Of a stretch of DNA of 32,185 nucleotides, positions 1,828-23,485 are shown one piece after another. The number at the start of each line of letters is the position of its first letter. Position 1 is the stretch's first letter. This stretch comes from an uncultured Clostridia bacterium (GTDB taxonomy: Bacteria; Bacillota; Clostridia; Christensenellales; UBA1750). Made by a program: the position numbers and the translations under genes. A model generated the notes under the pieces. The model was not told the origin of the DNA. It did not search any database and worked only from the letters and a program-made list of their open reading frames with translations. The stretch is taken from NCBI GenBank assembly GCA_944381265.1, contig CALWKN010000195.1:1-32185 (forward strand), read 5' to 3'.

Positions 1828-1854
1828 CGCGCCATAGGGAGAGGAGGGAGCGCC

Positions 1855-2955: not shown

Positions 2956-2979
2956 GCGCGGAAAGGAGGAGCAAAATCT

Positions 2980-3747: not shown

Positions 3748-3766
3748 CAGACGGAGGAGGGCGAAC

Positions 3767-7137: not shown

Positions 7138-7164
7138 CCATTACGGAAAAAGCGAGGTGAGCCC

Positions 7165-9216
7165 ATGCTCCGCACCGAAAACCTGGACGACCAGACCTTT
7201 GCCGAGATTGTCGAGGAGGCGGTCAAGTCCATACCCACCGTCTTCCCCGCCTGGACGGACCACAACGCCCACGACCCCGGCATCACGATCCTGGAGCTCT
7301 TCAGCTGGTACAAGGAGATGCAGCAGTACCACCTGAACTGTCCCACGGAGCGGACGCTGAACATGTACCTGAAGCTCCTTGGCATGGAGCGCGGGGACAT
7401 CGAGCCGGCACAGGCCACGATCTGCTTTTCCGATCTGGACGGGGAGATCGAGCTGCGGGCGGGCGACGAGATCGCCGCGCCCGGCGGCGCGACGTTCACA
7501 TTCACCGAGGATAAGCGCCTTGGCGGCGACCGCGTGCGCAGCGTGCTGCTGGAGGCGGGCGGAGCGGTCACCGACATCACCGAGCTCGTGCTGCGCGACG
7601 GCATGAAGATCCGCGCCTTTTCCGGCGGGGCCGCGCTGTGGTTTGGGCTGGAGCGCGCGCGGGCGGGCGAGGCGCTCTCCCTGTTCCTGACGCTATCCGA
7701 CGACTACCCGGTAAAGCGCAACCCCTTTTTGCCGGACGAAGCGCCCGGGCGGCGCATCCGCGTCTTTGGCGGCTCCGGCAGGGAATTCCCGATCCTGCGG
7801 GACGAGACGCGCGCCTTTTCCTGCACCGGCGCGCTCGTGCTGGACGCAAGGGGCGAGGGCGCGACCGACCCCTTGCAGCGCGGGGAGGCGACCTGGGTGC
7901 GCGTTGTGCTGGAGGAGCCCGGCTGCGAGGAGGAGCCGCAGCTCTGCGGCGTCTGCGCCGCCTTTGCCCGCGCCGCGCAGAGGAAGACGCTGGTGCGCAG
8001 CGCGGACTTCACCGTCTCCGGCCGCCGCGCCCGCGTGCTGCGCGAGGGCCTGCTGGAGAAGCGGGGCCGCTGCTTCCTGCTTGCGCGGGACGAGTACGGC
8101 TGGCGCGCCGTGGAGCAGCTCGTCTACACGCCCGAGGCCGTGCAGGCGGACCTGCCCTTTGACCCCGTGCAGGATGGACAGCCGAATCTGCGCGCCATCT
8201 TCTACGAGGAGTGGATGGCGCCGCACCTGAGCGCCGACGGCGGCGGGCGCAGCGGCTTTGCCTGGCCCCTGCCCCTGGACGGCGCGCTGCCGGACGTCGG
8301 CACCGCCCGCATACTGGGCAGGACGCGCACCAAGGGGGGCGAGCGCTATGTGGAGTGGAACTACGCCCCGGACCTCAACGCCCTTACGCCCTTTGACCGC
8401 TGCTTTGCCCTGGACGCGGAGGCGGGCGCGTTCGTCTTTGGCGACAACGAGCGCGGCGAGGTCGCCCCGGCGGGCCCGGACGCGCTGCTGCTGCGCGACT
8501 TCTCCCTGACGCTGGGGGCGCAGGGGCGCTTTCCCGCGGCGCAGACGCTCAAGATCGGCGCGCGCAAGGCGCGGGTGCAGGCCGGGCAGTTTTGGGAGGG
8601 CCGGGACCGCGAAAGCGTGCAAGCTGTGCGCGCCCGGCTGATGCGCCGCCTAAAGGAGACGGCCCGCGCCGTGACGGAGGCGGACTACGCCGCCTTTGCT
8701 CGGGCAACGCCCGGCCTTCGCGTGATGCAGGCCGGGGCCATCGCCGGCTTTGACCCGGACCGGCCCATGCGCGCGCCCCGCTGCGTGACCGTGGCGGTGC
8801 TGCCCTACAGCGCCGGGCCGCGCCCCATGCCGGACGCGGACTTCCTGCAAAAGGTGCAGGCGCAGCTGGAGCGCGTGCGCCCGGTCTGCACCTATGTCAA
8901 GGCCGTGGCCCCGCTCTACATCCGCATCGACATCAGCGTCACGCTCCTTGTCCGCGCCGGCGCCGGGAACGTGGAGGAGGGCGTCCGGCGCGCGCTGGAG
9001 GCCTGCTTCCGCAGCGACGAAAAGGGCTGGAGGCTGGGCAGCCGCATCACCGAGGGCGAGATCGCCGGGGCCATCGGCCAGGCGGAGGGCGTGCTCGGCG
9101 TAAAGAATCTGCAGATGAACGCCGAGAGCGCCCGCGCCGGACGCAGCGCCGCCGGGGACATACTCCTGCCGCCGCACGCCCTGCCGGAGCTGGGCGCGCT
9201 GGAGGTCTACCGCTAG
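7165..9216 (+). CDS. Second baseplate J-like wedge protein (Afp12-like)
   Basis: The 683-aa product opens with a family hallmark: FPAWTDHNAHDPGITILELF, followed by an aromatic helix (residues ~28-60), which is the 'DPGI-x-LLELFAW' type start of putative baseplate proteins in CIS and phage loci. The C-terminal region has a J/gp6-like signature near residues 500-520 (ETARAVTEADYAAFARATPG), followed by VTVAVLPYSAGPRPMPDADF and an EITEGEIAGAIGQ-like end. It is the expected partner of the upstream Afp11-like protein in the wedge heterodimer. The ATG at 7165 is preceded by GCGAGGTGAG. Confidence 0.88.
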   Translation: MLRTENLDDQTFAEIVEEAVKSIPTVFPAWTDHNAHDPGITILELFSWYKEMQQYHLNCPTERTLNMYLKLLGMERGDIEPAQATICFSDLDGEIELRAGDEIAAPGGATFTFTEDKRLGGDRVRSVLLEAGGAVTDITELVLRDGMKIRAFSGGAALWFGLERARAGEALSLFLTLSDDYPVKRNPFLPDEAPGRRIRVFGGSGREFPILRDETRAFSCTGALVLDARGEGATDPLQRGEATWVRVVLEEPGCEEEPQLCGVCAAFARAAQRKTLVRSADFTVSGRRARVLREGLLEKRGRCFLLARDEYGWRAVEQLVYTPEAVQADLPFDPVQDGQPNLRAIFYEEWMAPHLSADGGGRSGFAWPLPLDGALPDVGTARILGRTRTKGGERYVEWNYAPDLNALTPFDRCFALDAEAGAFVFGDNERGEVAPAGPDALLLRDFSLTLGAQGRFPAAQTLKIGARKARVQAGQFWEGRDRESVQAVRARLMRRLKETARAVTEADYAAFARATPGLRVMQAGAIAGFDPDRPMRAPRCVTVAVLPYSAGPRPMPDADFLQKVQAQLERVRPVCTYVKAVAPLYIRIDISVTLLVRAGAGNVEEGVRRALEACFRSDEKGWRLGSRITEGEIAGAIGQAEGVLGVKNLQMNAESARAGRSAAGDILLPPHALPELGALEVYR

Positions 9217-9231
9217 AGGGGAGGGGGAGAC

Positions 9232-10350
9232 ATGGACAACTATCTTGTCGTCAACCGGCGCAGCGACTTTGCTGCCGGGCTGCTGGTCAACCTCCGCCCC
9301 GAGGGCGAGGGGCTGACGCTGAAGGAGACGGGCGGCATTGCCCGCGGCTGCGTCTACCTGCCGCGCCTGGACGGGGGCAAGCGCGACTTTGCCTGGACGC
9401 GCCTTACGCTGGACATCGACGAGTTCGAGGGCATGGCGCGCGTCTCCGCCTTCGCCGCGGACAACGACGTGCTGCCGGAGGAGGGCGTGAGCCTGCAGGA
9501 CTACCTGCGCGACCCGTACGTGCCGCCGTCCGTCAAGACGGGCGTGGCGGACCCGCTCTACCGCACCGGGTTTGTCGACGGGCGGGACGTGCTGCTGAAC
9601 CTGCGCGGCCGCTACCTCTACGTCAAGGTGGAGATCGTGTGTACCGGCGGGCCGCCGCCGGTGCTGCGGGCCGTGCGCGCCCGCGTGGGCGGCGACCACA
9701 TGCTGGACTACCTGCCGGCCGTCTACGCCCGCAGCGACAGGGATGGCTTCCTGTTCCGCTTCCTGTCGGTGTTTGACGCCATGGTAAAGGACCTGGAGGC
9801 GCGCATCGACCACTTTGAGCAGAACCTCGACTTTGACAAACAGACCGGGGAGAACCTGCGCTATCTCGCCTCCTGGGTGGGGGTGAATGAGCCGCACCTT
9901 AATGACGAGGAGCTGCGCGAGGTGGTGCGCGGCGCGGTGGCGGGCTATGAGCGCGCCCAGACGCCGGAGGGCATCAAGCGCCGCGTGCAGCGCCTGACGG
10001 GCGCGCGGCCCTATCTTGTGGAGCACTTCCGCGTCGAGCCCATGCAGCTGAGCGGCAAGGACGCCGCGCTCTACATCCGGCTCTTCGGCACGCAGGAGAA
10101 CGTCTTCCACATCCTGCTGCTGGCGCGCTGCCTTCCTACGCAGGAGGCGGTCAAGGACTTCCGGGAAGCCATTGACAACGTCATACCGGCCGACACCCAG
10201 GCGGAGCTCGTGCTGCTCAAGGACAGCGTCTACCTCGACGCCCACACCTACCTGGGCGTAAATTCCGTCATATCCGGCCACACCGGCGCCGCCATCGACC
10301 GCAGGGCCGCCATACAGTACGACACCGTGATTGGAGGGGAACCCAAATGA
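9232..10350 (+). CDS. Phage tail protein I-like baseplate protein
   Basis: The 372-aa protein has two parts. Residues 1-~150 are beta-rich and unrecognised (RSDFAAGLLVNLRPEGEGL at the start). Residues ~155-330 resemble the phage tail protein I/TIGR02242-type domain: DHMLDYLPAVYARSDRDGFL, then FRFLSVFDAMVKDLEARIDH and YLASWVGV, followed by an RRVQRLTGARPYLVEH element. Proteins of this type sit at the outer baseplate between wedge and fibre. The gene starts 15 bases after the previous stop with a strong AGGGGAGGGGG site and overlaps the next gene by four bases. No tail-fibre gene follows, so its N-terminal part may itself provide peripheral structure; this is inference. Confidence 0.78.
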   Translation: MDNYLVVNRRSDFAAGLLVNLRPEGEGLTLKETGGIARGCVYLPRLDGGKRDFAWTRLTLDIDEFEGMARVSAFAADNDVLPEEGVSLQDYLRDPYVPPSVKTGVADPLYRTGFVDGRDVLLNLRGRYLYVKVEIVCTGGPPPVLRAVRARVGGDHMLDYLPAVYARSDRDGFLFRFLSVFDAMVKDLEARIDHFEQNLDFDKQTGENLRYLASWVGVNEPHLNDEELREVVRGAVAGYERAQTPEGIKRRVQRLTGARPYLVEHFRVEPMQLSGKDAALYIRLFGTQENVFHILLLARCLPTQEAVKDFREAIDNVIPADTQAELVLLKDSVYLDAHTYLGVNSVISGHTGAAIDRRAAIQYDTVIGGEPK

Positions 10351-12122
10351 AGAACGCAAGCATCTTCCCGCTGGAGCGCAACCGCTATTTCTACGGCAAG
10401 CTCCTCACCGTGCGCGACTTTGAGCTGGAACAGACCTATATGAACAACAAGCGCCGCCTGATCAACCGCGCGGTGCTGGGCGCGGGCGTCGTGTGCGGTC
10501 TGGGCGTGACCCAGGCGGACGATTACACGCTCCTATTGGAGAGCGGCCTTGCGCTGGACTACCTCGGCCGCGAGGTCGTGGTCGATTCCCCGGTGGTGCG
10601 CCGCCTGCAGATGCTGGAGGGGTACGACAAGCTCGGCAGCGCCCCCCAGTGCTACCTCTGTTTGCAGTACGCCGAAAAGGACGCGGAGCCCGTGGGCGTC
10701 GTCGCCGCCGAGGGCCAGGAGAACCAGTGCAACAAGACGGAGGAGGGCTACCGCCTGTATCTCGATGTCGAGGAGCCGGACATTCCCCGCCTGCTCACCG
10801 CCGCAGGGTACGAGAACGTCAGCCTGCTCTACCAGAGCCGCGACGTCACGGTGGCCTTTGCCATGCCGCAGGCCGTGCGCAGCGAGGAGGACTTTACCGC
10901 CACGCTCCTGCTGCTAAAGTCCGATTTGAAGACGCCGGTCTCCCTGGACCTTACGCTGGAGAGCGAGTTCTTCACCGGCGAGGACGGCAGCGCGCACATC
11001 CACTACAGCTTTAAGGAAAATCCGTTGGAGCAGCGCCACATACGCACGCTGCACCTGCCGCTGCACGCGCCGAACCTGGCCGGTACCGCGGCGGAGCTCG
11101 CCCCGGGCGGCGGCCTTCTCTCTGTGCGCTTTGGCGACGCGGGGGAGGAAGTGGCGCTCCAGCTCTCCGCCAAGGCCCAGATCTGCGGCAGCGAGGAGGA
11201 GAGAAGCGCCTATCTTGCCGTAAAGGACAATCTGCGCGCCCGCCTGCAGGCCGGGGACCTGCCCATCTATCTTGCCAAGCTCCAGCTCCTGCCCGCCGGT
11301 GCCATGACCATGATCGGCTCGGTCGCCGCCCTGCCCTTTGACCAGCGCCTGCGCAAGAGCGCCGAGGGCCAGGCGGGCGAGGGCCTGGCGCCGCTGGAAG
11401 TGAGCAGCGAGGTCGAGACGCTCAAGAGCTGGCAGGAGCCGCAGGCCCAGGCCCGCTACAGCCACGCCACGCGCTCCCTGCACTTTCACTTCGGCATCCC
11501 CCGCGCCCAGGAGTACGACTACGCCACCTCCTCGGGCGTTGTGGAGATCCCCATGTCTAGTGGCCTGCGAGTCAACGCCCGCTATGTTTCGGAGGAAATT
11601 CCCCACAACCTTGGCATAGGCAACGTGGACATCCGCCTTGCCGTGGAGTTTGAGGAGAACGGCGAAAAGGCGCAGTTCTTCGGCAACCGCGAGGTGTTCA
11701 AGTCCCGCGCTACCGCCGCGCCCCAGGTGCAGACCGCGGCCATCGTCTACCCGGAGAAGGGGACGTTCAAGGTCGGCGTTTGGCTGCTGGACAACGTCGA
11801 GGGCTCGGTGCTGCGCGTGCGCTACTACGCCTCCAAGGTGACGCGCGACCTGTCCGCCGTGCGCAAGGAGGAGGCCGTCTCCGTGCGCGTGGTGCCGGAG
11901 GTGCAGCGCGTGCCCGCCCGCGGCCGCCTGCACTTAAAGGCCGCGGTCTACGGCTGCGAGGACCGCGAGGTGATCTGGTCCGTCAAGGACAAGAACGGCG
12001 GCTCCATCGACAAGAACGGCCTCTACCAGGCGCCGGACGAGCGCGGCACCTACGAGATCGTCGCCGCCAGCCGCTACGACCCGGAGGTCAAGGTCAGCGC
12101 CTTTGTGATCGTGGAGGAGTGA
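10347..12122 (+). CDS. CIS baseplate-periphery protein with FYGKLLTV N-terminus and C-terminal Ig-like domain
   Basis: The 591-aa product begins with FYGKLLTVRDFELEQ (from residue 15), then VVCGLGV (48-54). This N-terminal pattern is, in my recollection, common in an uncharacterised protein encoded directly after the baseplate genes in many extracellular-CIS clusters. The middle is beta-rich with no motif I can name. The last ~80 residues (from about 511) look like a bacterial Ig-like (Big_2-type) domain: VRVVPEVQRVPARGRLHLKA, then VIWSVKDKNGGSIDKNGLYQ and a GTYEIVAASRYDPE end. Ig-like domains on phage and CIS surface proteins often serve weak adhesion, so this is a candidate outward-facing protein. 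The start codon overlaps the preceding stop. Confidence 0.72.
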   Translation: MKNASIFPLERNRYFYGKLLTVRDFELEQTYMNNKRRLINRAVLGAGVVCGLGVTQADDYTLLLESGLALDYLGREVVVDSPVVRRLQMLEGYDKLGSAPQCYLCLQYAEKDAEPVGVVAAEGQENQCNKTEEGYRLYLDVEEPDIPRLLTAAGYENVSLLYQSRDVTVAFAMPQAVRSEEDFTATLLLLKSDLKTPVSLDLTLESEFFTGEDGSAHIHYSFKENPLEQRHIRTLHLPLHAPNLAGTAAELAPGGGLLSVRFGDAGEEVALQLSAKAQICGSEEERSAYLAVKDNLRARLQAGDLPIYLAKLQLLPAGAMTMIGSVAALPFDQRLRKSAEGQAGEGLAPLEVSSEVETLKSWQEPQAQARYSHATRSLHFHFGIPRAQEYDYATSSGVVEIPMSSGLRVNARYVSEEIPHNLGIGNVDIRLAVEFEENGEKAQFFGNREVFKSRATAAPQVQTAAIVYPEKGTFKVGVWLLDNVEGSVLRVRYYASKVTRDLSAVRKEEAVSVRVVPEVQRVPARGRLHLKAAVYGCEDREVIWSVKDKNGGSIDKNGLYQAPDERGTYEIVAASRYDPEVKVSAFVIVEE

Positions 12123-12151: not shown

Positions 12152-12925
12152 ATGACGCGCGTCAACATGGCCGGCTTTGGCCGCTATAAGCGGATCCGGC
12201 GCCTGCAGGAGGCGGAGGGCTACGAGGCCTTTTCCGCCCTGGACATCGAGGTCTCCACCCGCCCGCTGCTGCTGCTCAACGTCTACGCGGGCGGGGCGGC
12301 CCCGCGGCGCATGGTCCCCCTGTTCTACGGCATGGACAAGGCCGTCTGCCCGGACTATGTGCGCTCCTTCACCGAGGACGGGCGCTTTACCGCCGTCTTT
12401 GTCCTGCACGAGGGCGAGGAGTTTGACGCCTGCTTCCCCCTTCGCGGCGGCGACATGGAGGCGGAGGAGCGGGAGGACTGCGCCGAGAGCCTGCTCCACG
12501 CCGCCCTGGAGTGCGCCGCCATGCCAAAGGACCTGCTGTGCGAGCTCTTTGCGTCGCAGAACCTCGTCGTGGACCGCAAGGCCCGCAGCGTCTTTGTCAA
12601 CTGCCTGCTGCCGCCCGCGGACGCCTCACAAAGCGCCACCTGCGCCCTGGGGCAGCGGCTCAGCCGCATCCTTCGCCGCCCCTGGAGCGCCACGGACGCG
12701 CAGATCGACTTCCTCGACGCGGCGGAGGCGGGGGCGTACGCCAGCATCGCCGCGCTCTACTCCGCCTGGCGGGAGCTGCTGCCCGTCATGCGGGAGGACC
12801 GCCGCGGCAAGGGCCGGCTGCTGGAAAAGGCGTTCCGCTTCCTCAAGCGCAGCTGGAAGCGCTGGCGCAAAAGACGAAAAGACGCGCGCGAGCGCCGCAG
12901 GCGTTTGCGCGATGAGGCGATCTGA
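12152..12925 (+). CDS. Hypothetical protein, possibly a degenerate kinase-like fold
   Basis: The 257-aa product starts at ATG after AGAAGGAGGAACAGGGC. I do not recognise a family. The spacing faintly recalls a protein-kinase fold: FGRYKRIRRLQEAEGYEAF and LLLLNVY (39-45) in place of the beta-3 lysine strand, a hinge-like FVLHEGEEFDACF, then DLLCELFASQNLVVD and VFVNCLL (127-153) where PENILVD and DFG motifs would fall. The catalytic Lys, HRD and DFG are absent, so if this reading is right it is a pseudokinase. The C-terminal ~35 residues are strongly basic (KRSWKRWRKRRKDARERRRR). No signal peptide or membrane helix is seen. It lies between the baseplate block and the membrane pseudocyclase, which hints at an adaptor role. 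Confidence 0.6.
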   Translation: MTRVNMAGFGRYKRIRRLQEAEGYEAFSALDIEVSTRPLLLLNVYAGGAAPRRMVPLFYGMDKAVCPDYVRSFTEDGRFTAVFVLHEGEEFDACFPLRGGDMEAEEREDCAESLLHAALECAAMPKDLLCELFASQNLVVDRKARSVFVNCLLPPADASQSATCALGQRLSRILRRPWSATDAQIDFLDAAEAGAYASIAALYSAWRELLPVMREDRRGKGRLLEKAFRFLKRSWKRWRKRRKDARERRRRLRDEAI

Positions 12926-12973: not shown

Positions 12974-15640
12974 GTGAAAAAAGTTGGCGCATTCCTTTTG
13001 ATCCTTCTTTGCGTGCTGACCTGCGTCGTCACAACGCTGGGGGACTACCTCTACGGCGCGGTGTTCGGGCGCGGCGGCGCGGCGGAAGCGGGCACGCAGT
13101 ACGCCCTGGCCATGGACGAAAACGGCCTGGTCTACTACGTCGAGAACGTGGACGGGGCCAACCGCATCGTAAAGACCGACGACCAGGGCAACCTCATCGT
13201 GGACGCGGAGCTGCCGGTCATGACGGACGCGGACCGCTTCGTGGTGCAGAGCATCTTCGTCACCAGCGACAACTACATCTACGTCGCCGGGTTTGAGGCG
13301 GACCTGGTGCATCGCACCGCCTCCCGCGCCATACTCGTGGCGCTGGACGAAAACGGCTCCCTCTACGACACGCCCTATGACGAACCCATCGAGACGGAGA
13401 CGCTGCGCGCCCCGCGCGGCGGCGCGATGTTCGCCGCCATGAGCGAGGACGACGACCGCGTCTACTTTGCCTACCTCAACGCCGGTCAGGCCGCCATACT
13501 GGCGCACGAAAAGAGCGGCGGCGCGGTCACGGCGCTGGCCTATGTCGAGGCGGGAGAGGACGTCACCGCCCTGTACGTCACCTCCGAAGGGCGCCTTGCC
13601 GCTTCTTACGCCGACGGCTCGCTGCGCCTTTCCTCCGCCGACGGCGCGCGCATGGAGCCCCTTGGCGCGGGGAATGTGCGCACCTTCCGCATGTATCACG
13701 GCAGCGGCAACACGTTCTACTATCTGGACGCGGAAAGCGGCGGCGTGGGCCAGGTGAACCTTGCGCAGGGGAGCGTCTCCGCCATCGTGCCGGGGAACCT
13801 GGACATCGGGGCGGGGCGCCGCTTCTCGGACTTTGCCGAGGTGGCCGTGGGCGCGCGCGGCCAGCTCTCCGGCCTGCTCTACGACGAGGGCTGGCGCGTG
13901 TTCACCGGCAGCGAGTCCCGCCTGAGCGAGAGCCCGCAGGCCCGCCGCACCGGCTTTGACACCGGCAAGCTCGTCGCCGCGGCCATACTCCTTGGCGCGC
14001 TGCTGGTGACGGTGCTGCTCTGGGACATCTACTGCAACGTGCTCAAGATGCGCGTCTCCGTCCTGGTGCGCCAGGCGGTGCTCATCGGCATCTCCCTGAT
14101 CATACTGGTCTATGTGCTCCTGCAGTTCATACTGCTGCCGCAGATGGAGAGCGCCATGACCGTGCAGTACGAGCACCAGGTCAGCACCGCGGCGCGCGTG
14201 CTGGCGGCGGAGGTGCGGGACCTGGACGAGGCGGACCGCGCCCGCGCCGTGCGCAGCGCCGGCGTGAAGCTCATCGGCTCCGACGGCGCGCAGATCCCCG
14301 CCTACTTCAGCCTCGTTGCGCAGGACGGCGGCGCGCGCCTGCTCGAGGCCACCAGCGAAAGCGCCGTAAGCGGCGTCATCTACAGCGCCGTGCCCCTGAG
14401 CGCGGACCTTGGCAGGGCCATAGACAGCGCGCTTGCCGGCGGCGAGCAGCTGCTGCGCCTGCGGGATCCCTTGGGCGAGACGATGTACGCCCTGGTCCCG
14501 GCCGGGGAGGATCGCGTCGTCATCGCCGCCATGAGCGCGGCGAGCGTGGGCGCGTCGCTCACCGAGCTCTTCCGCCGCGTGCAGATCTTCCTCGTGGCGG
14601 CCTGCGCGGTGCTGTTCGCGGCGCTGCTGCTGGTGGAGAGCCTCACCGTGCGCTCGCTGCGCCGCCTGCGCCGCGGCGTGGACGCCGTGAGCTCCGGCAA
14701 CTACGACGTGGAGATCCACGTAAGCTCCGGCGATGAGGTGGAGAACCTGGCCCACGCCTTCACCGCCATGGCCCACAAGATCCGCGACAACACCCGCCGC
14801 CTGGAGGACGTCTCCCGCTCCTACTACCGCTTCGTGCCGGAGAACCTGGTGCAGCTGCTGGGCGAGAGCACGATCGAGGGCGTGGGCAAGAACTCCAGCG
14901 TGGAAAAGCGCATGACGCTGCTGCGGCTGCACTTCTCCTTTGCCGACAGGCGCGTGGCCGACTCCACCAAGGCGCTGTTCCAGAACATCAACGACGTCAT
15001 CGAGCACCTCTCCCCCCTGGTGACGGAAAACGGTGGCACGGTCTACGACTTTAACGCCGACAACTTCATCGCCGTGTTCTCCCGCAGCGACGACGCCCTG
15101 CGCGCCGCCCTGCGCCTGCGCGAAGCCGCCCAGGCTTTAAGCGAGGACAGAAAGTCGCGCGGCCTGTGCGATGTGGACGTGCGCCTGACGCTGTGCGGCG
15201 GCGACGTCATGCTCGGCATCATAGGCGACGAAAAGCGCATGTCCCCGGCCGTGGTCTCCGACATCGTGGCCCAGGCCGAGCGCCTCTGCGCGCTGCAGGC
15301 GCCAAGCTCGGTCTACATACTCTGCACGCGCGAGGTCGTGGGGGACGCGGAGCCCTACCGCCTGCGCGCCATCGGCACCTACTACGACAACGGGCGTCCG
15401 CTGCAGCTCTTTGACGTCTACGACGGCGACCCCTACGCGCTGCTCAAGACCAAGGAGACCATACAGCCGCAGTTCGAAAAGGCCCTTGCCGCCTACGAGA
15501 GCGGCGACATGGCCCGCGCCCGCCTGCTGTTTTTGCAGATCGTCAAGTCCGCCTTTGACGACGGCGTCTCCCGCAACTACCTCTATTGCGCGGACGCGCG
15601 CCTGCACGGCGGCGGCAGCCCCGGCTACCGCACCATGTAA
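12974..15640 (+). CDS. Membrane sensor: beta-propeller ectodomain, HAMP, degenerate class III cyclase domain
   Basis: The 888-aa product starts at GTG. Likely order: TM1 (~4-24); a beta-rich propeller-like ectodomain (~40-320, repeated strands such as ENGLVYYVENVDG and SDNYIYVAGFEAD); TM2 (~333-355) and TM3 (~362-386); a second extracytoplasmic segment (~390-534); TM4 (~536-558); HAMP (~558-612, ending DEVENLAHAFTAMAHKI); a cyclase-like domain (~640-810); and a short helical tail. The cyclase domain keeps Asp696 and Arg770. His653 replaces the first metal-binding Asp, Asp692 sits where the purine-selecting Lys is usual, and Ala766 replaces the Asn of the VN-x-AAR motif. Catalysis is therefore unlikely, and a binding or dimerisation role is more plausible. 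It precedes the MORN protein in the same direction. Confidence 0.8.
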   Translation: MKKVGAFLLILLCVLTCVVTTLGDYLYGAVFGRGGAAEAGTQYALAMDENGLVYYVENVDGANRIVKTDDQGNLIVDAELPVMTDADRFVVQSIFVTSDNYIYVAGFEADLVHRTASRAILVALDENGSLYDTPYDEPIETETLRAPRGGAMFAAMSEDDDRVYFAYLNAGQAAILAHEKSGGAVTALAYVEAGEDVTALYVTSEGRLAASYADGSLRLSSADGARMEPLGAGNVRTFRMYHGSGNTFYYLDAESGGVGQVNLAQGSVSAIVPGNLDIGAGRRFSDFAEVAVGARGQLSGLLYDEGWRVFTGSESRLSESPQARRTGFDTGKLVAAAILLGALLVTVLLWDIYCNVLKMRVSVLVRQAVLIGISLIILVYVLLQFILLPQMESAMTVQYEHQVSTAARVLAAEVRDLDEADRARAVRSAGVKLIGSDGAQIPAYFSLVAQDGGARLLEATSESAVSGVIYSAVPLSADLGRAIDSALAGGEQLLRLRDPLGETMYALVPAGEDRVVIAAMSAASVGASLTELFRRVQIFLVAACAVLFAALLLVESLTVRSLRRLRRGVDAVSSGNYDVEIHVSSGDEVENLAHAFTAMAHKIRDNTRRLEDVSRSYYRFVPENLVQLLGESTIEGVGKNSSVEKRMTLLRLHFSFADRRVADSTKALFQNINDVIEHLSPLVTENGGTVYDFNADNFIAVFSRSDDALRAALRLREAAQALSEDRKSRGLCDVDVRLTLCGGDVMLGIIGDEKRMSPAVVSDIVAQAERLCALQAPSSVYILCTREVVGDAEPYRLRAIGTYYDNGRPLQLFDVYDGDPYALLKTKETIQPQFEKALAAYESGDMARARLLFLQIVKSAFDDGVSRNYLYCADARLHGGGSPGYRTM

Positions 15641-15676: not shown

Positions 15677-17749
15677 TTGTTTAACGCACTCTATCGCTCC
15701 ATCGTCATGGTCTTTCGCATGCTCAAGAACGCCCTGCTGCGGCCCTTCCGCTCGCTCTACGCGCGGGCCCGCAGTGCGGCGAGTCTGACGCGCCAGGCCT
15801 CCAAGGTCGTGCCCAAGGTGGTCAAGACCGTCACCACCGTCAAGGTCAAGCCCAAGTCCCGCGCCGACTACATCGACGCCGGGCCCGTCTATGTGGCAAA
15901 GTCCCTGATCTTCGTGGTGATCGGCGTGCTGGTGGCGCTCTTTCTGGCCGGGCGTTTCTTCGTCTGGCCCTGGATGGAGAGCCGCTGGTTCACCGCCCGC
16001 ATCTACGCGCTGGACGACAGGGCCGAGACGCACACCGGCCGGGTGGAGCTCTATTACGACGAGGCCCTGAGCGAGATCGCCTTCTCCGGCCGCCTGCGCG
16101 AGGGCGTAAAGACCGGGCGCGGCACGGAGTACTACGAGAACGGCGTCGCCGCCTTCGAGGGCAGCTTCGACGAAAACGGCCTGTACAGCGGCCACGGCAT
16201 CCGGCGCGGCGAGGACGGCAGCGTGGTCTACGAGGGCGGCTTTGCCGCCGGGCTCTACGAGGGCGAGGGCCAGCTCTACGAGGACGGGCAGCTCCTCTAC
16301 GAGGGCGAGTTCTCCGCCGGGGCCTATCAGGGCGAGGGCAGGCTCTATGCGGGCGGGCTCCTTGCTTACGAGGGCGACTTTGTCTCCGGCGCGCAGAGCG
16401 GCCAGGGCAAGGCCTACGAGGACGGCGCTCTGGCCTACGAGGGCGGCTTCCAGGACGGCCTGTACAGCGGCGCGGGCAAGACCTATTACCCCGACGGCAC
16501 GGTGCGCGCCGAGTGCGCCACGTTCAGTGCCGGGCAAATCGACGGCGCCTGCGTGCTCTACTACGAGAGCGGGGCAAAGAAGTTCGAGGGCACCTTCTCC
16601 CAGGGCCAGGCCTCCGGCCAGGGCACGCTCTACGACGAGAGCGGCGCGCGCACCTACTACGGCGGCTTTGAACAGGGCCTAAAGTCCGGCACGGGCACGG
16701 AGTACTACGCCGACGGCAAAAAGGAGTACGAGGGCGGCTTTGCCCAGGGACAGCGCGAGGGCGAGGGCACGCTCTACCGGGCGGACGGCACGGTGCTCTA
16801 CAGCGGCGGCTTCTCTCAGGGGCTTTACGAGGGCACGGGCACGCTGCATAGGGAGGACGGCGCGCGCGTGGAGGGCGCGTTTGTCCAGGGAGAGATCCTG
16901 GGCGCGGCCAGCTTCTACGACGCCGCGGGCGCGCTCCTTTACGCGGGCGGCTTTGCCGACGGCAGCGCCCAGGGCGCGGGCACGCTCTACGTTGGCGGCG
17001 CGGCGGTCTTTACCGGGAACTTCGCCTCCGGCTTCCCGGACGGCGCTTCCGTGCTGGACCTGCCGGTGGGCGACCTGCGCGAGACGGTCTTTGCCGGGGC
17101 GGAGCTGAGCGAGTCCCGCGCCGAGCAGGGCTTTGTCATCGACAACCCCGGCGCGGACATGGCGGTCTTCTGCAACTACGGCTACAACGACGCCGAGATC
17201 GTCGTGCACCGCCTCTACCTCTACGGCGAGAGCCTGCTCTCCCGCTTCTCCGGCGCGGCCTTCGTCCCGCCGGAGGGCTACACGGACGTGCGGGAGGGGC
17301 GCGAAACGCCGCTGCTGCTGCCGGGCGTCGCGGCCACGGCCCAGGTGCCGCACGACGTCACCCGCTATGACTACGGCGCCTACACGCTGCGCCTCTGGCG
17401 CGACGAGGCGGGCAACATCGACCTCATCGAGTGGCGCTCCTACACCGACCTTGCCATAGAGGGCGGCGCGGCGGAAACGCCCGCCGACGCTGAGGAGAGC
17501 CTGATCGACGGCCTGCTCTCCGACCTTGGACTGACCGCGCCCGCCGACGGCACAGCCGCGAACGGCACGGATGCGGACGGCACAGCCGCGAACGGGGAGA
17601 CGACCGGCGGCGGGACGGCCGACGGCACAGCCGCAGACGGCACAGAGGAGAACGGCACAGAGGAGAGCGACGGGCAGGCGGCGGAGGAACCCGCCGGGCC
17701 GACGCCCGCGCCGGTGTACGACGGCCTGTCCGGAGGAGGGAGATCGTAA
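15677..17749 (+). CDS. Membrane-anchored MORN-repeat protein
   Basis: The 690-aa product starts at TTG. A basic N-terminal segment of ~70 residues precedes one membrane helix at about 74-96 (SLIFVVIGVLVALFLAGRFF), so by the positive-inside rule the rest is probably outside the cytoplasm. Roughly residues 115-450 are about fourteen MORN-type repeats of ~23 residues (YEGGFAAGLYEGEG, YEGEFSAGAYQGEG, YEGGFAQGQREGEG). A non-repeat domain follows (~470-600), then a low-complexity Gly/Thr/Ala/Asp/Glu tail and a Pro-rich end. MORN arrays form extended beta sheets used in scaffolding or lipid contact. In this locus it could be an envelope scaffold or docking platform for the CIS, which is inference. 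The next gene begins directly after its stop codon. Confidence 0.85.
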   Translation: MFNALYRSIVMVFRMLKNALLRPFRSLYARARSAASLTRQASKVVPKVVKTVTTVKVKPKSRADYIDAGPVYVAKSLIFVVIGVLVALFLAGRFFVWPWMESRWFTARIYALDDRAETHTGRVELYYDEALSEIAFSGRLREGVKTGRGTEYYENGVAAFEGSFDENGLYSGHGIRRGEDGSVVYEGGFAAGLYEGEGQLYEDGQLLYEGEFSAGAYQGEGRLYAGGLLAYEGDFVSGAQSGQGKAYEDGALAYEGGFQDGLYSGAGKTYYPDGTVRAECATFSAGQIDGACVLYYESGAKKFEGTFSQGQASGQGTLYDESGARTYYGGFEQGLKSGTGTEYYADGKKEYEGGFAQGQREGEGTLYRADGTVLYSGGFSQGLYEGTGTLHREDGARVEGAFVQGEILGAASFYDAAGALLYAGGFADGSAQGAGTLYVGGAAVFTGNFASGFPDGASVLDLPVGDLRETVFAGAELSESRAEQGFVIDNPGADMAVFCNYGYNDAEIVVHRLYLYGESLLSRFSGAAFVPPEGYTDVREGRETPLLLPGVAATAQVPHDVTRYDYGAYTLRLWRDEAGNIDLIEWRSYTDLAIEGGAAETPADAEESLIDGLLSDLGLTAPADGTAANGTDADGTAANGETTGGGTADGTAADGTEENGTEESDGQAAEEPAGPTPAPVYDGLSGGGRS
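17546..17670 (+). repeat. Short tandem repeats encoding a Gly/Thr/Ala/Asp-rich linker
   Basis: The unit gacggcacagccgcgaacgg occurs exactly at 17546 and 17576. Close variants begin at 17631 and 17646, and shorter forms lie between and after. They encode DGTAANG-, DGTAADG- and NGTEE-type repeats in the C-terminal tail of the MORN protein. Such arrays are prone to length change between strains and suggest a flexible extracytoplasmic spacer. Confidence 0.8.
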
Positions 17750-18643
17750 GTGAAGACGCGAGGAATGGCGCTGCTTCTGGCGCTGCTGCTGCTCCTGCCC
17801 CTGCCGGTCCTGGCCAACGGCGACACGCCCGCCACGTCGGCCGCACCGAGTGCGTCGGCTGCACCGAGCACGTCGGCAGGGGATCCGGCGCAGACGGCGG
17901 AAACGGTGGAATACGCGGACGTCGAGGCATTGTTTGCCGCCTGTACGGACCACCAGCTCTCCAGCCGCACGGCCCTGGCCGAGGCGCTGCACGACGTGGT
18001 CCTGTCGCAGATGGACGTTTCCATCAAGCAGGACGCGCTGGCGCAGGCGCAGGCGGGGCTTGCGCAGGCAGAGGAGGCGCAGCTGATGGCGCTGGCGGCG
18101 CCGGAGGACGTGACGGCGGCGCAGGAGGCGGTGGACGAGGCGCAGACGGCGCTGCAGACGGCCCAGCTCGAGCAGCTGAAACACATCTCCTCCGTGCGCG
18201 CCATGACGGGCGTGGACATCAGCGGCAGCACCTACAACGCGCGCGACTTCTTCTTTACCTTGCAGCCGGAGGAGATCGCGCTCTCCTTCCTGCAGGACAG
18301 CATCGTCGCCTACGGCCTGATGGAGGACAAGCAGAAGGCGGTGCAGGAGATCGAGCAGGACTACATCGACATCGCCCTGCAGTACGCCGCGCTGCAGGAG
18401 GCGGCAAAGGCCTATGGCGAGGCGCAGGAGGCGCGCGAGGAAGTCGCCCTCTCGCTCATCATGGGCAACGCCAGCGACGCGGACTTTGCCGCCGCGACGG
18501 GGGACATGCGGCAATCGCGCCTGGAGCTCTTCACTGCCATGGCGGACTACAGCCGCCTGCTCTACCGCGTCAACGAGACTTGCGGCGGCGCGTTGAGCGA
18601 TGAGGCGGGCCTGCTCGCGGAATACCTTGGCACAAACAGCTAG
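17750..18643 (+). CDS. Exported helical coiled-coil protein (weakly TolC-like)
   Basis: The GTG immediately follows the previous TAA, with GGAGGGAG inside the end of the upstream gene. The 297-aa product has a clear signal peptide (MKTRG, then a Leu-rich core, with probable cleavage near VLA-NG at residue ~22), a Ser/Ala/Pro/Thr-rich spacer (~24-45), and long Ala/Gln/Glu helices (~60-150 and ~185-280) with coiled-coil character. The last helix (SRLELFTAMADYSRLLYRVN, then ETCGG) recalls the end of TolC-family helices, but no beta-barrel strands are seen and the protein is much shorter than TolC. A cell-wall-side helical partner of the adjacent MORN protein is plausible. Function unknown. Confidence 0.7.
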   Translation: MKTRGMALLLALLLLLPLPVLANGDTPATSAAPSASAAPSTSAGDPAQTAETVEYADVEALFAACTDHQLSSRTALAEALHDVVLSQMDVSIKQDALAQAQAGLAQAEEAQLMALAAPEDVTAAQEAVDEAQTALQTAQLEQLKHISSVRAMTGVDISGSTYNARDFFFTLQPEEIALSFLQDSIVAYGLMEDKQKAVQEIEQDYIDIALQYAALQEAAKAYGEAQEAREEVALSLIMGNASDADFAAATGDMRQSRLELFTAMADYSRLLYRVNETCGGALSDEAGLLAEYLGTNS

Positions 18644-18658
18644 AGGGAGGATGGGACG

Positions 18659-19246
18659 ATGGCCGAATACACGGCGATCTTTGAGGCGGCGGAGGCCGTG
18701 GCGGAGCTGCTGCGGCGGGAGATGACGCCGGAGCCGATCTCCAAGCCCGAGCTCATCGGGCTGTGCACGCCCTTTGAGCCGGAGGACTTCCAGCTCACGG
18801 TCTACCTCTACGCGCTGGAGGAGGAGGCGCACAGGCGCCAGTCGCCCTACGCCTTCCAGACGGAGGGGCGGGACGCCCAGCGCATGCCGCCCCTGGCGCT
18901 GAACCTGCACCTGGCGCTGACGGCTCACTCCAAGGCCCCGGTGCAGACGCGCGCCGCGGACGAGTACCGGATACTCGGGCGGGCCATGCAGGTGGTGCGC
19001 GACCACCCGGACCTTGCGCCCTACTGCGGCGGCTCGCTCGCCGCCTCCGGCCAGCCCGTGCGCCTGAGCCTGGAGAACGACCGCGAGCGGCAGGAGGCGC
19101 TGCAGCGGGCCTGGAGCGGCAGCAACAAGCCCTACAAGCTCTCCTTCTCCTGCCGGGTGGAGACGGTGCTGCTCGACTCCGAGCGCGTGCGCTCCGTCGC
19201 GCGCGTGCGCCACATCCGCATCGAAACGGAGGAGAAGACGACATGA
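18659..19246 (+). CDS. DUF4255 tail terminator/cap protein (Afp16/Pvc16-like)
   Basis: The 195-aa product matches the DUF4255 pattern: FEAAEAVAELLRREMTP at the N-terminus, LTVYLYALEEEAHRRQSPY in the middle, then PPLALNLHLALTAHSKAP and a YRILGRAMQVVRDHPDL helix. In Afp and PVC this protein caps the end of tube and sheath and fixes particle length. Its presence, with no capsid-joining genes, is a main reason for calling the locus a CIS rather than a prophage. The start lies after AGGGAGGATGGGACG. The stop overlaps the next ATG by four bases. Confidence 0.88.
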   Translation: MAEYTAIFEAAEAVAELLRREMTPEPISKPELIGLCTPFEPEDFQLTVYLYALEEEAHRRQSPYAFQTEGRDAQRMPPLALNLHLALTAHSKAPVQTRAADEYRILGRAMQVVRDHPDLAPYCGGSLAASGQPVRLSLENDRERQEALQRAWSGSNKPYKLSFSCRVETVLLDSERVRSVARVRHIRIETEEKTT

Positions 19247-19998
19247 TCGCACTGGACGTGGCCCTGGCACTGGAGATATTGGACGACTTCACCGGCCGCC
19301 CGCTAAAGCCCGCCGCGCTGCGCTTTTCCCTGGACGGGCAGGAAGCGCGGCCCATCCAGAAGGACGGCGGCTGGTTCGTGTTCCTGTCCCCCGGGCCGGG
19401 CATGCACGAGCTCACGGTCCGCGCGCCCGGCTACCAGGGGGAGAGGCTGACCTTCCCCGGCGTTGGAGAGGGGGAGGAGCCGCGCCTGGAGACGCTGCGC
19501 CTGCTGCCCGCGCCGGACTACCGCTTCGGCCGCCGGGTGACGACGCTGACGCTGCGCTTCCTGGACAAGTCGGGCAGGCCGCCGCGGGAGCTGGAGGTCT
19601 ACCGCCTGGGCAGCGACAGGCAGAGCCTGCGCCTGGCGCAGGACGACGCGGCGGCCGGGGCGCGCGCCCTGCGCCTGTTCGCCCCGGAAAAGCCTGCCCG
19701 CCTGCCCCTGCCCGGGCTGTTCTACCTGGAGGACGGCGAAGCGGGGGAGCTGTTGCGCCTCTCCCTGCCGGAGGGCGCGATCTACGCGCTGGAGACGCCG
19801 CTGCGCCTTGCGCACAAGCGCGGGCGGCTGCTGCGCCCCTGCCGCGCCCTGCGCCCGGACGCCGAAGGGCGCGCCTTTCTCGCCCTGGGCGAGGAGACGG
19901 AGGCGCGCCTGCTCATCAAGTATGCGCGGGGCTTTGCCGTAAAGACCGCCGAAGCGGCGCCGTATGCGGACGCTCGGGCGGACATCGTTTTGGACTAA
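19243..19998 (+). CDS. CIS-associated beta-rich protein, carboxypeptidase regulatory-like N-terminus
   Basis: The 251-aa product is translationally coupled to the DUF4255 cap gene through an ATGA overlap. The first ~85 residues resemble a carboxypeptidase-regulatory or prealbumin-like Ig fold: LEILDDFTGRPLKPAALRFS, then WFVFLSPGPGMHELTVRAPG and YQGERLTFP. Residues ~90-160 may be a second similar module (TTLTLRFLDKSGRPPRELEV, then YRLG). The remainder is beta-rich without recognisable motifs. There is no signal peptide. Its place between the cap and the PAAR-like spike tip suggests a structural accessory, but I do not recognise an Afp counterpart. Confidence refers to it being a real gene with this general description. 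Confidence 0.7.
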   Translation: MIALDVALALEILDDFTGRPLKPAALRFSLDGQEARPIQKDGGWFVFLSPGPGMHELTVRAPGYQGERLTFPGVGEGEEPRLETLRLLPAPDYRFGRRVTTLTLRFLDKSGRPPRELEVYRLGSDRQSLRLAQDDAAAGARALRLFAPEKPARLPLPGLFYLEDGEAGELLRLSLPEGAIYALETPLRLAHKRGRLLRPCRALRPDAEGRAFLALGEETEARLLIKYARGFAVKTAEAAPYADARADIVLD

Positions 19999-20002
19999 GG
20001 AG

Positions 20003-20009
20003 AAGGAGG
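20003..20009 (+). promoter_or_regulatory. RBS (AAGGAGG) fixing a GTG start for the PAAR-like gene
   Basis: AAGGAGG lies eight bases before the GTG at 20018. The alternative upstream ATG at 19964 lies inside the preceding gene, has no such site, and would add residues unlike the family. The short start gives the usual DUF4280 opening. Confidence 0.7.
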
Positions 20010-20017
20010 GATCGGCT

Positions 20018-20392
20018 GTGGCCCAGCCCGTCGCCATGGGGGCGATGTGCCAGTGCGCCTTTGGCGTCGCGCCCTGCCCCATCACGGTATCCTCGCAGCA
20101 GACCTGCGTCTCCGGCGCCATGCCGCTGGCCACGATCAAGGACACCGCGGGGCTGATGTTCGGCATGTGCTCCTCGCTGCTCAACCCCGCGGTCGCCGCC
20201 ACCATCACGCCCGTGGGCACGTTTACGCCCATGCCCTGCGCGCCGGTGTTCGTCGGCGTCTGGGCGCCGGGCAGCCCCACGGTGCTCGTCGGCGGCACGC
20301 CGGCGCTGAATGCCAACTCCATGCTCACCTGCGCCTACGGCGGCGTGATCAAGATCTCCTTAAGCACGATTTTTACCGTACAGGTTCCCTAA
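20018..20392 (+). CDS. PAAR-like spike tip protein, DUF4280 type
   Basis: Read from GTG, the product is 124 aa. It has the Cys- and Gly-rich signature of the PAAR-like DUF4280 family: MGAMCQCAFGVAPCPI at the N-terminus, ATIKD, PMPCAPVF and GVWAPGSPTVLVGGTPALNA, and the closing LTCAYGGVIKIS. Such proteins form a small cone, usually metal-stabilised, that sharpens the VgrG-type spike and can carry effectors. Here there is no C-terminal extension, so any cargo would be non-covalent or encoded elsewhere. In Afp the PAAR gene sits next to gp25; here it is ~16 kb away, after the cap gene. Confidence 0.9.
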   Translation: MAQPVAMGAMCQCAFGVAPCPITVSSQQTCVSGAMPLATIKDTAGLMFGMCSSLLNPAVAATITPVGTFTPMPCAPVFVGVWAPGSPTVLVGGTPALNANSMLTCAYGGVIKISLSTIFTVQVP

Positions 20393-20418: not shown

Positions 20419-21477
20419 ATGAAGACCTGGATGCGAAACGCGCTCACCTATGTGCTGGCGCTGGCCTGCCTGTTCGCGGGCCTGTGCTGGACGGTGCGGA
20501 CCAAGGAGCGGACCGTGGGCGACGCCTACCGCGCCGCGCAGGAGTCCCTGCGCGCCACGGAGCTGACGCAGTACATCACCAGCCTGGAGTTCGGCATCCG
20601 CTACGGCAAGAACCTGGAGAATTATTTCAACATGGACGAGGTGCTGGAGTCGATCCTGCGCACCTCCCCTTACGTCGAAGGCGCCTACATACTCAGCAAC
20701 GACAACGCGCTGCTCTACGCCGCGGGCGAGGCGCTGCCGGAGCCGGAAGCCCTGCGCGTGCTGCACAGCGGCGACGCGCTCTACGCCTCCAGCGAGCAGT
20801 TCGGCTACGCGCTGATGTTCATGGACATCGACGGGGCGGACGGCGCGCGCGCCGGCACGCTGATGGTGCTGCTCAACGACGACATCATGACCCGCGTCAT
20901 CGAGAGCTACCAGGCGCAGGGGCGGGTGCAGAGCCTGGTGATCCTGTCGGAGGTGTTCCTGCTCTTCCTATTGGTGCACACGCGCCTGACCCGCGCCGGG
21001 CGCCGCCGCCTCTCCGCCCTGGCCCTTGCGGTATTGCTCTCGCTCACCGTGCTCTTTGCCCAGGGCCTGGACATCGGCATCGAGACGGCCAAGCTCAGCG
21101 TGGAAATGCGCACCATCACCTCCCAGTCCGTGCAGAAGATCGCCCAGGTGCTGCAGCAGCAGGTGGAGAGCGTGATGGACAAGGGCGTGGGCGTGGACGA
21201 CCTCTACGACATCTACGGCTGGCTGGACGACATCGACGAGACGCTGGACATGGTCGCCCGCCTGGACTTCAGCGAAGAAGGCCGCATCCGCGCGGTGATG
21301 GACGAGGACTACCTCGCCTCCCGCCTGCGCGGCGCCTTTGGCGAGATGGTCGGGCCCTATGCGCTGCTGGCGCTGTGCTGCGCGGCGGTCTGCTGCCTTT
21401 GCGCGCTGGCGCCAAGAGCGGCGCGCGCCGTGCGGCGCCGCCGCGCGCAGGGAGGAGAGACGTATGCGGCGGGCTGA
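20419..21477 (+). CDS. Four-helix membrane protein with two extracytoplasmic sensor-like domains
   Basis: I place the start at ATG 20419, just after the PAAR-like stop and a GGCGGAGAGG site, giving 352 aa; the frame stays open upstream but there overlaps the PAAR-like gene. Layout: TM1 (~8-26); a Cache/CHASE-like extracytoplasmic domain (~30-165, with YGKNLENYFNMDEV at 62-75); TM2 (~170-190) and TM3 (~196-216); a second extracytoplasmic domain (~220-308, with KGVGVDDLY from residue 255); TM4 (~311-331); and a short basic cytoplasmic tail. No kinase, HAMP or other output domain is present. The same layout and motifs recur in the N-terminal half of the MFS fusion at 27334. The end overlaps the AAA+ gene by 14 bases, suggesting coupled expression and perhaps interaction with that ATPase. 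Confidence 0.78.
   Translation: MKTWMRNALTYVLALACLFAGLCWTVRTKERTVGDAYRAAQESLRATELTQYITSLEFGIRYGKNLENYFNMDEVLESILRTSPYVEGAYILSNDNALLYAAGEALPEPEALRVLHSGDALYASSEQFGYALMFMDIDGADGARAGTLMVLLNDDIMTRVIESYQAQGRVQSLVILSEVFLLFLLVHTRLTRAGRRRLSALALAVLLSLTVLFAQGLDIGIETAKLSVEMRTITSQSVQKIAQVLQQQVESVMDKGVGVDDLYDIYGWLDDIDETLDMVARLDFSEEGRIRAVMDEDYLASRLRGAFGEMVGPYALLALCCAAVCCLCALAPRAARAVRRRRAQGGETYAAG
21451..21457 (+). promoter_or_regulatory. RBS (GGAGGAG) fixing the AAA+ gene start
   Basis: GGAGGAG inside the end of the upstream sensor gene lies six bases before ATG 21464. This start fits better than in-frame codons from 21338 on, which would overlap the sensor gene by over 100 bases and lack a comparable site. 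Confidence 0.65.
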
Positions 21478-23485
21478 AGCGCTGGCCCTGCGCGCCGACG
21501 CGCCCTTTGCCGACGTTTCGGAGCTTGCGCAGGGCCTGACGCTCTGGCTGGACGCGGCATTGTCCCACGCCTACGCGCACGGCCCGGCGGCGGGCCGCGA
21601 TGCGGAGATGCGCGATTTTGCGGGTCTGTTGGTGCTGCGCGAGCAGTTTGAGCGGGACGTTGCCCGCGCCGGGGACGAGCGCGCGCTGGGCCAGGGCGAG
21701 GAGGCCGCGGATATCGACGAGGCGCTGCGCCTGCGCCTGCAAAAGACGCCCGACCTGCCCTATGCCCGCGCCGTGCGCACGCTCGAGCTGAACGCGGAGG
21801 AGGAGCGCGCGCTGCGCTTTGCCCTGGCCGCGGACCTGGACGAAAAGTACAAAAAGCTCTTCGCCTTTTTGCAGGACGACATTTCGCGCCTGCGGCCCTC
21901 CCTGCGCCTGGCCGCTTTCCTCTGCGCGCCCGCCGGAGCGCTCACCGCGCGCGCGGCCCTGCGTCTTGGGCAGAGCCCGCGCCTGGCCCCGCTGCTGGAG
22001 GCGTCGGCCCTGCGGAGGGGCGAGCTCGCCCCCGCGCCGGCGCTGGTGCAGGCGCTCTTTGGCGAGGAGGCGGCAAACGACGCGGAGGAGCCGTTCTGCC
22101 CCCTGCACGAGGAGCAGACCGCGGCCCTGCGCCGCCTTGTGCAGCAGCGGCGGCCCGTGGCGGCGCTGCTGTGCGGCCCGGAGGGCGTGGGGCGGCGCAC
22201 CGCCCTGCGCCGGGCCGGGGCGCGCCTTGCGCTGTGCAGGCCGGAGACGCTGGACGACGGCATCGCCCGCGCGGCGCTGCACGGCACGCGCCTTGCGGTG
22301 GACTGCGGCGCGGGGGAGATCCCCGACCTCTCGGCCCTGCCGCCGGGGCTTTTGCCCGTCTTCCTGCTGGCGCAGGCGGGGACGGCGCTGCCCCCGGCCG
22401 CGGCGCTGCCGCCGGGCGGCGGCGTGAAGCTGGACTTCGCCCCGCCGGGGGACGCAGAGCGCGCCGCGCTCTTTGCCCTGCAGGCCGGGGCGCGGGGCGT
22501 GCAGGGCCCGGCGGAGGAGCTGGCGGAGAAGTTCTTCTTCCTGCCGAGGCGCGTCAAAGAGGCCATGGCCGCGGCGCGGGCCCGCCAGGACAGCCTGGGC
22601 CGCGCCCTGACTGCGGCGGAGCTGCACAGCGCCTGCTACGACGTGCTGCGCGTCTCCGGGCAGATGGCAGAGCGCGCCTTCCCCACAGGGGGCCTGGACG
22701 ACCTCGTGCTGCCCCGGGCGCAGAAGGAACAGCTGCGCCAGGCGGTGGAGCAGGTGGAACTAAGGCGCAGGGTCTACGAGGAATGGGGCTTTGGCCGGGG
22801 GCTGTCCTACGGCCGCGGCGTGTCCATACTGCTCTCCGGCCCGCCGGGCACGGGCAAGACCATGGCCGCCTCGCGCCTTGCCTCGGCGCTGCACATGCGG
22901 CTGCACACCGTGCAGCTGAGCCAGGTGATCAGCAAGTACGTGGGCGAGACGGAGAAGAACCTGCGCCGCGCCTTTGCCGAGGCGGCGCAGGCCAGCGCCG
23001 TGCTCTTCTTCGACGAGTGCGACGCGCTCTTTGGCAAGCGCGCCGAGGTGCGTGACGCCCAGGACCGCCATGCCAACGCCGAGGTGGCCTTCCTCCTGAA
23101 GGAGCTGGAGGCGCACGAGGGCGTGACGATACTGGCCACGAACCTGAGCAAGAACCTCGATCCGGCCTTCCTGCGGCGGATGCGCTTTGTGGTGCACTTC
23201 CCCTTCCCGGACGCCGCGATGCGCCAGGCGCTCTTCCGCCGCCTGCTGCCGCCGGACGCGCCGCTGGAGGGCGAGATCGACTTTGCCTTCCTGGCCGAGA
23301 AGTTCGCCCTCTCCGGCGGCAACATACGCAACATCACGCTGCACGCCGCCTTCCTCGCCGCGGCGGCGGGGGAAAAGATCGGCATGAAGCACCTGCTGCG
23401 CGCCGCGGTCTATGAGCAGCGCAAGAACGAGATCGTCGTGGTGCGCGAGGACCTGCGCCAGTACGAAGACCTGCTGGACAGCTGA
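21464..23485 (+). CDS. AAA+ ATPase (Afp15-like), first of two paralogues
   Basis: The 673-aa protein has a degenerate N-terminal P-loop region around residues 238-246 (GPEGVGRRT: the Walker Lys is Arg and no Ser/Thr follows it). The C-terminal AAA+ domain is intact: Walker A GPPGTGKT (459-466), Walker B VLFFDE (513-518), an ILATNLSKNLD sensor-1 stretch and an AFLRRMRF arginine-finger region. The residue after Walker B is Cys (DECDALFG) where Ala is usual. ATPases of this kind (Afp15/Pvc15) are conserved in CIS loci and are thought to assist assembly or recycling. A helical N-terminus (~1-120) may bind the partner. The start overlaps the sensor gene by 14 bases. Confidence 0.87.
   Translation: MRRAEALALRADAPFADVSELAQGLTLWLDAALSHAYAHGPAAGRDAEMRDFAGLLVLREQFERDVARAGDERALGQGEEAADIDEALRLRLQKTPDLPYARAVRTLELNAEEERALRFALAADLDEKYKKLFAFLQDDISRLRPSLRLAAFLCAPAGALTARAALRLGQSPRLAPLLEASALRRGELAPAPALVQALFGEEAANDAEEPFCPLHEEQTAALRRLVQQRRPVAALLCGPEGVGRRTALRRAGARLALCRPETLDDGIARAALHGTRLAVDCGAGEIPDLSALPPGLLPVFLLAQAGTALPPAAALPPGGGVKLDFAPPGDAERAALFALQAGARGVQGPAEELAEKFFFLPRRVKEAMAAARARQDSLGRALTAAELHSACYDVLRVSGQMAERAFPTGGLDDLVLPRAQKEQLRQAVEQVELRRRVYEEWGFGRGLSYGRGVSILLSGPPGTGKTMAASRLASALHMRLHTVQLSQVISKYVGETEKNLRRAFAEAAQASAVLFFDECDALFGKRAEVRDAQDRHANAEVAFLLKELEAHEGVTILATNLSKNLDPAFLRRMRFVVHFPFPDAAMRQALFRRLLPPDAPLEGEIDFAFLAEKFALSGGNIRNITLHAAFLAAAAGEKIGMKHLLRAAVYEQRKNEIVVVREDLRQYEDLLDS

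Follow-up and report, generated by a model that had tools for sequence, protein, structure and literature searches.

A membrane receptor with a catalytically degenerate cyclase fold is a conserved component of contractile injection system loci in gut Clostridia

How the intracellular contractile injection systems (CIS) of Gram-positive bacteria reach the cell membrane and time their firing is an open question, for which CisA is the only genetic case found in the literature. A locus that bears on it lies in the window analysed here, i.e. the whole 32,185-nucleotide stretch of contig CALWKN010000195.1 from an uncultured Clostridia bacterium (assembly GCA_944381265.1), where a gene for an 888-residue receptor, further referred to as REC, is surrounded by CIS genes. 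The cytoplasmic end of REC has the fold of a class III nucleotide cyclase devoid of its active site, and this receptor probably ties the CIS to the cell membrane or triggers it there, rather than synthesizing a second messenger. Loci of the same type occur in cultured commensals (Anaerotruncus colihominis, Agathobaculum massiliense, Flavonifractor and Faecalibacterium), which makes the question of membrane contact and firing testable.

The open reading frame of REC (positions 12974–15640) begins with GTG and has the Shine-Dalgarno sequence GGGAGGAG just upstream. Its counterpart in a related genus is 68% identical and conserved over the full length. Hydropathy analysis revealed four helices, and since their layout is common to the full-length CIS-linked homologues, the topology with four transmembrane (TM) segments is not a chance property of one sequence. 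According to the positive-inside rule, residues 41–319 and 390–535 are predicted to be outside the cell, and everything from HAMP onward inside. The AlphaFold2 model used here was built for a monomer from 59 aligned sequences and has a mean pLDDT of 85.9, while a version obtained with six sequences (pLDDT 53) was discarded. Propeller proteins, such as megalin (8jxe) and 3azo, were among its Foldseek matches, in keeping with an N-terminal part that is all beta. The second extracellular domain may be cache-like, judging from weak sCache matches in two deep relatives (L133 and L143). HAMP follows a TM helix and is preceded by an extracellular sensor, as in HAMP transmembrane receptors. The initial annotation, which described a propeller-HAMP receptor ending in a cyclase domain, was therefore correct as to the propeller, HAMP and the cyclase fold, but incomplete, as it included neither the four TM helices nor the second extracellular domain.

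Pfam gave no cyclase match for the REC protein itself. Homology with class III cyclases was registered by phmmer (E=7e-7 to Cya2, 2w01) and by the family profile (E=7e-16), and the CIS-linked relative from locus L133 clears the Pfam Guanylate_cyc cut-off. Superposition of the model on 2w01 by means of Foldseek and VIA-align, a check proposed in the initial annotation, gave Z 21.5 and 2.5 Å over 182 residues. The assignment of H653, D692, D696, A766 and R770 to catalytic positions proved to be exact in numbering, and their register was borne out by two alignments. In that made with the family profile, position 653 coincides with Asp in “SDLRGFT” of 2w01 and “SDIRGFT” of CyaB (3r5g); in that with 2w01, D696, A766 and R770 fall on the second metal-binding Asp, Asn and Arg. 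Thus, of the features examined that mark a class III cyclase as an enzyme, REC has the fold, while the base-selecting Lys or Glu is absent and the pair of metal-binding Asp and the Asn–Arg pair are incomplete.

To see how far this state extends, 37 CIS-linked homologues of REC were compared with the 23 nearest non-CIS relatives found (group B, L009–L031). At the first metal-binding position (653) the CIS-linked proteins have Trp in 17 cases, Ser in 10, Arg in 6 and His, Gly, Thr or Ala once each, so that Asp is present in none of them. The base-selecting position 692 is occupied by Asn (26), His (7), Asp (3) or Ser (1), and neither Lys nor Glu was registered. Asp and Asn are equally frequent at the second metal-binding position 696 (17 each, 3 others), and both metal Asp are missing in 20 of the 37 proteins. 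For the transition-state residues the distribution is Ser 22, Thr 10, Ala 2, Asn 2 and Asp 1 at position 766, and Glu 13, His 10, Arg 9 and 5 others at position 770. Group B has Asp at metal site 1 in 17/23 sequences, Lys in 22/23 and Asn in 15/23, with Lys replacing Arg. Its members belong to Clostridia with small genomes (about 1 Mb), and three of them (L024, L029, L031) are losing the mostly kept catalytic set. The suggestion that Asp696 and Arg770 are under selection was dropped in view of their frequencies in the CIS-linked set and the variability of catalytic columns; the weight initially placed on their retention in REC was not justified either, as the 68% identical sister has Asn at 696.

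Within the CIS-linked set the catalytic columns are more variable than the domain as a whole (mean 1.70 bits; domain median 1.28), and of five-column sets drawn at random, 82% equal or exceed the catalytic five in conservation. About 45 columns of the cytoplasmic half are invariant or nearly so, including residues of the RFVP linker, ILCT, DGD and the C-terminal tail, and none of them is catalytic. Selection, therefore, acts to preserve the fold with its flanking parts rather than the catalytic site. Deeper Clostridial relatives all lack the catalytic set, while their sensor and even their membrane anchoring vary; the form from L133, for instance, has two TM helices and HAMP, and drift is extreme in L130, L131 and L134. 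The dead cyclase in an intact receptor, deduced from a single sequence, is thus supported as a conserved state of the whole family, deeper relatives included, and not a quirk of one genome. It offers a clear-cut case in which the cyclase fold has been preserved throughout a bacterial family purely for its structural role. In a quick tree one branch had all CIS-linked copies on the same side (SH-aLRT 80, which is weak, with several long branches); the simplest interpretation is, therefore, that activity was lost once.

The gene order CIS12-CIS13-h12152-REC-MORN-Pvc16-CpD-PAAR-AAA is shared by tens of named gut Clostridia. In 36 loci collected from named genomes with the family profile, the neighbours and their order were the same, and CIS structural genes were visible in 34, the contigs of the other two (L046 and L063) being too short; five of these loci share contigs with loci of the genome search. 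The reading frame of REC is open in nearly all copies. REC is, therefore, a fixed component of the CIS locus in many gut Clostridia, as its conserved place testifies, and the initial impression that it is embedded in a CIS operon holds far beyond the window. Among 391 Clostridia genomes the CIS marker Pvc16_N was found in 15, eight of which have a REC relative and a MORN gene near the CIS genes. In six of the other seven, read through the baseplate genes, the REC relative is missing, and in the seventh (G586) the locus is cut by the contig end. Five genomes without REC (G526, G588, G627, G744 and G676) encode two long CIS13-like proteins of about 855–880 and 1,700–1,960 residues, while the stretch read in G419 contains neither REC nor this pair. 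Comparison of these two types of loci suggests two ways to organize target contact. In the loci without REC (L122–L127 and L136–L141), the long CIS13-like proteins, where present, are possibly fibres standing in place of the membrane module. The literature searched, to which most subscription papers and all preprints did not belong, contained no description of the REC module and no pairing of CIS with MORN repeats.

Two conserved neighbours of REC deserve attention. Convincing matches to the profile of h12152 were found only at CIS loci in the 61 genomes searched. Merged with deep relatives, this family can be aligned colinearly with protein kinases over the first half of their domain (hhalign E=3.8e-5, probability 71%), while two of its alignments taken singly (A3 and A5) gave no significant kinase match; the profile of deep relatives retrieved kinases first from PDB (E=0.007, with kinase matches ranging within 0.007–0.5). 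Since an invariant Asn43 lies near the position of the ATP-binding Lys of kinases and the HRD motif is missing, the product of h12152 is likely a pseudokinase. In its deep relatives from L130, L131, L133 and L146 a C-terminal hydrophobic segment reads as a TM helix. The MORN-repeat protein is predicted from its sequence to expose the repeats outside, leaving its basic N-terminal tail inside, and in L036 and L065 the OEP/TolC-hairpin-like region is fused to its end.

Table 1. Location of REC, its parts and the surrounding genes in the window
Feature	Positions	Strand	Basis or remark
CIS structural genes: tube protein, gpD-like, spike (Phage_base_V), gp25, two baseplate J proteins, CIS12, CIS13	1114..12119	+	
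h12152, putative pseudokinase, between CIS13 and REC	12152..12922	+	adjoins REC in the great majority of loci
REC, propeller / sensor / HAMP / pseudo-cyclase receptor, 888 aa	12974..15637	+	Pfam, model, homologues, hydropathy
REC TM1 / signal anchor, residues 4–22	12983..13039	+	hydropathy; helix 2–30 in model; also in full-length homologues
REC extracellular beta-propeller, residues about 41–319	13094..13930	+	all-beta model, pLDDT about 90; Foldseek
REC TM2 (334–352) and TM3 (369–387), short basic inside loop	13973..14134	+	hydropathy
REC second extracellular sensor domain, about 391–534 (also 390–535)	14144..14575	+	model
REC TM4 (536–554) and HAMP (558–605)	14579..14788	+	Pfam HAMP E=3e-12; hydropathy
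REC RFVP-type linker between HAMP and cyclase fold, 617–622, invariant or nearly so	14822..14839	+	conservation
REC class III cyclase fold without active site, 640–826	14891..15451	+	alignment, structure, conservation
REC H653, metal-Asp 1 position	14930..14932	+	
REC D692 (base-selecting Lys position) to D696 (metal-Asp 2 position)	15047..15061	+	
REC A766 and R770 (transition-state Asn and Arg positions)	15269..15283	+	
REC C-terminal three-helix TPR-like tail, 821–877, strongly conserved	15434..15604	+	model, conservation
MORN-repeat membrane protein, single TM, conserved neighbour of REC	15677..17746	+	
OEP/TolC-hairpin-like exported coiled protein	17750..18640	+	below Pfam cut-off
Pvc16, CpD-like and PAAR-like CIS genes	18659..20389	+	
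CIS AAA+ ATPase	21461..23482	+	

Two further observations concern other genes of the window. A membrane sensor module is apparently common to the receptor-like product of 20419–21477, encoded before the AAA ATPase, and to the MFS protein encoded at 27334–29757, in the N-terminal half of the latter; a single gene in L044 matches both proteins. Alanine racemase encoded at 23555–26089 has a C-terminal extension of about 470 residues with no Pfam match.

Proceeding from the fold, the lost active site, the predicted topology and the gene place, we infer that REC is a dedicated dead HAMP receptor of Clostridial CIS, which docks the particle at the membrane and/or allows it to fire, and consider this slightly better than an even guess. 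The two outer domains, the propeller and the second sensor, would meet a ligand or a neighbouring surface. As family knowledge suggests, the resulting change may pass via TM4 and HAMP to a dimer of cyclase folds, which would make no cyclic nucleotide and act only as a platform for protein docking. The RFVP linker, the ILCT/DGD region and the three-helix tail, all observed to be conserved, could provide the docking surfaces, and the most likely partner would be the CIS baseplate, together with the pseudokinase-like h12152 and the MORN membrane protein. A bolder version, in which the pseudo-cyclase receptor, the pseudokinase and the MORN protein form a membrane module of dead signalling enzymes that holds the loaded particle and fires it on an outside signal, is tentative, and we would sooner doubt it than rely on it. 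If this is true, Gram-positive bacteria would have in this module an equivalent of the type VI membrane complex, made of receptor parts.

Two considerations weigh against docking or triggering by REC. One relative (L132) is a soluble protein of 325 residues having neither TM helices nor HAMP, so that anchoring is not universal for the domain. In addition, a receptor controlling expression or assembly of the CIS would have conserved surfaces much like those of REC. Such a receptor would act on the operon through a regulator and not on the particle itself, as HAMP receptors usually do, and two-component regulators have been reported next to some eCIS loci (PMC8213781). However, in nearly all loci REC is placed amid the consecutive structural genes, and the neighbours compared, of which only those with homologues in the window were scored, included no regulator gene, so that this alternative appears rather unlikely. 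A non-catalytic switch, whose dead pocket binds ATP, GTP or another nucleotide and thereby sets the state of the dimer, was proposed initially on a par with docking. It could explain full preservation of the fold, conservation of the GVVGD motif and the occurrence of Thr at position 759 in 31/37 CIS-linked homologues, but metal, base-selecting and transition-state positions vary freely, and the Trp so frequent at metal site 1 is bulky. Since the loss extends to the nucleotide pocket, sensing of nucleotides is less plausible, and we regard this half of the initial proposal as weakly supported and improbable, while its other half, i.e. docking, is favoured.

The possibility that REC still works as an enzyme, with the help of different acidic residues or of a cyclase partner acting in trans, derives from the presence of D696 and R770 in this copy and from D692, which is acidic like Glu of guanylyl cyclases. 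Metal site 1 and the Lys/Asn/Arg set are not kept in the family, however, and a search of the source genome, which is 88% complete, yielded no further class III cyclase (PF00211); residual catalysis is, therefore, very hard to believe in. Still less credit can be given to the assumption that REC is a decaying remnant without function. Loss of the catalytic residues and the divergent sequences from L130, L131 and L134 are what decay would produce, but the invariant cytoplasmic columns and the open frame are not.

The proposed docking receptor can be compared with several known systems, of which CisA, together with a putative haloarchaeal anchor, is the nearest functional analogy. Like the HAMP-coupled class III adenylyl and guanylyl cyclases CyaC, Cya2 and CyaB, REC has the cyclase fold, the register of its positions and the order HAMP–linker–cyclase, but its family, unlike these enzymes, drifts at all five catalytic positions, therefore no cyclic nucleotide output by the known mechanism is to be expected. 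Closer to REC are the HAMP-cyclases of group B, with which it has the linker, the fold and the tail in common; in five of their neighbourhoods that were read nothing matched other genes of the window. Hbor_38620, the putative anchor of the haloarchaeal T6SS, is a membrane protein, conserved and associated with a single branch of CIS loci, and haloarchaeal Cis11 was placed closest to that of Bacillota (PMC11566945). REC shares these traits of a conserved, branch-specific membrane protein, but Hbor_38620 crosses the membrane with six TM helices, has a cytoplasmic domain about 150 residues long and is encoded upstream of the core cluster, whereas REC has four TM helices, two outer domains and a pseudo-cyclase. 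REC does not belong to the family of Hbor_38620. CisA of the Streptomyces coelicolor CIS is a membrane protein needed for firing, with a predicted contact to Cis11, and its gene was reported downstream of the baseplate genes (PMC12237407). REC, too, is a membrane protein encoded downstream of baseplate genes. CisA, however, is a bitopic protein whose cytosolic part is disordered and whose outer domain is substrate-binding-like, and it has no propeller, HAMP or cyclase fold, while REC with its four TM helices, propeller and HAMP does not conform to this type, and no homology between them is claimed. By docking the particle or letting it fire, REC would do the job of CisA by means of a different protein.
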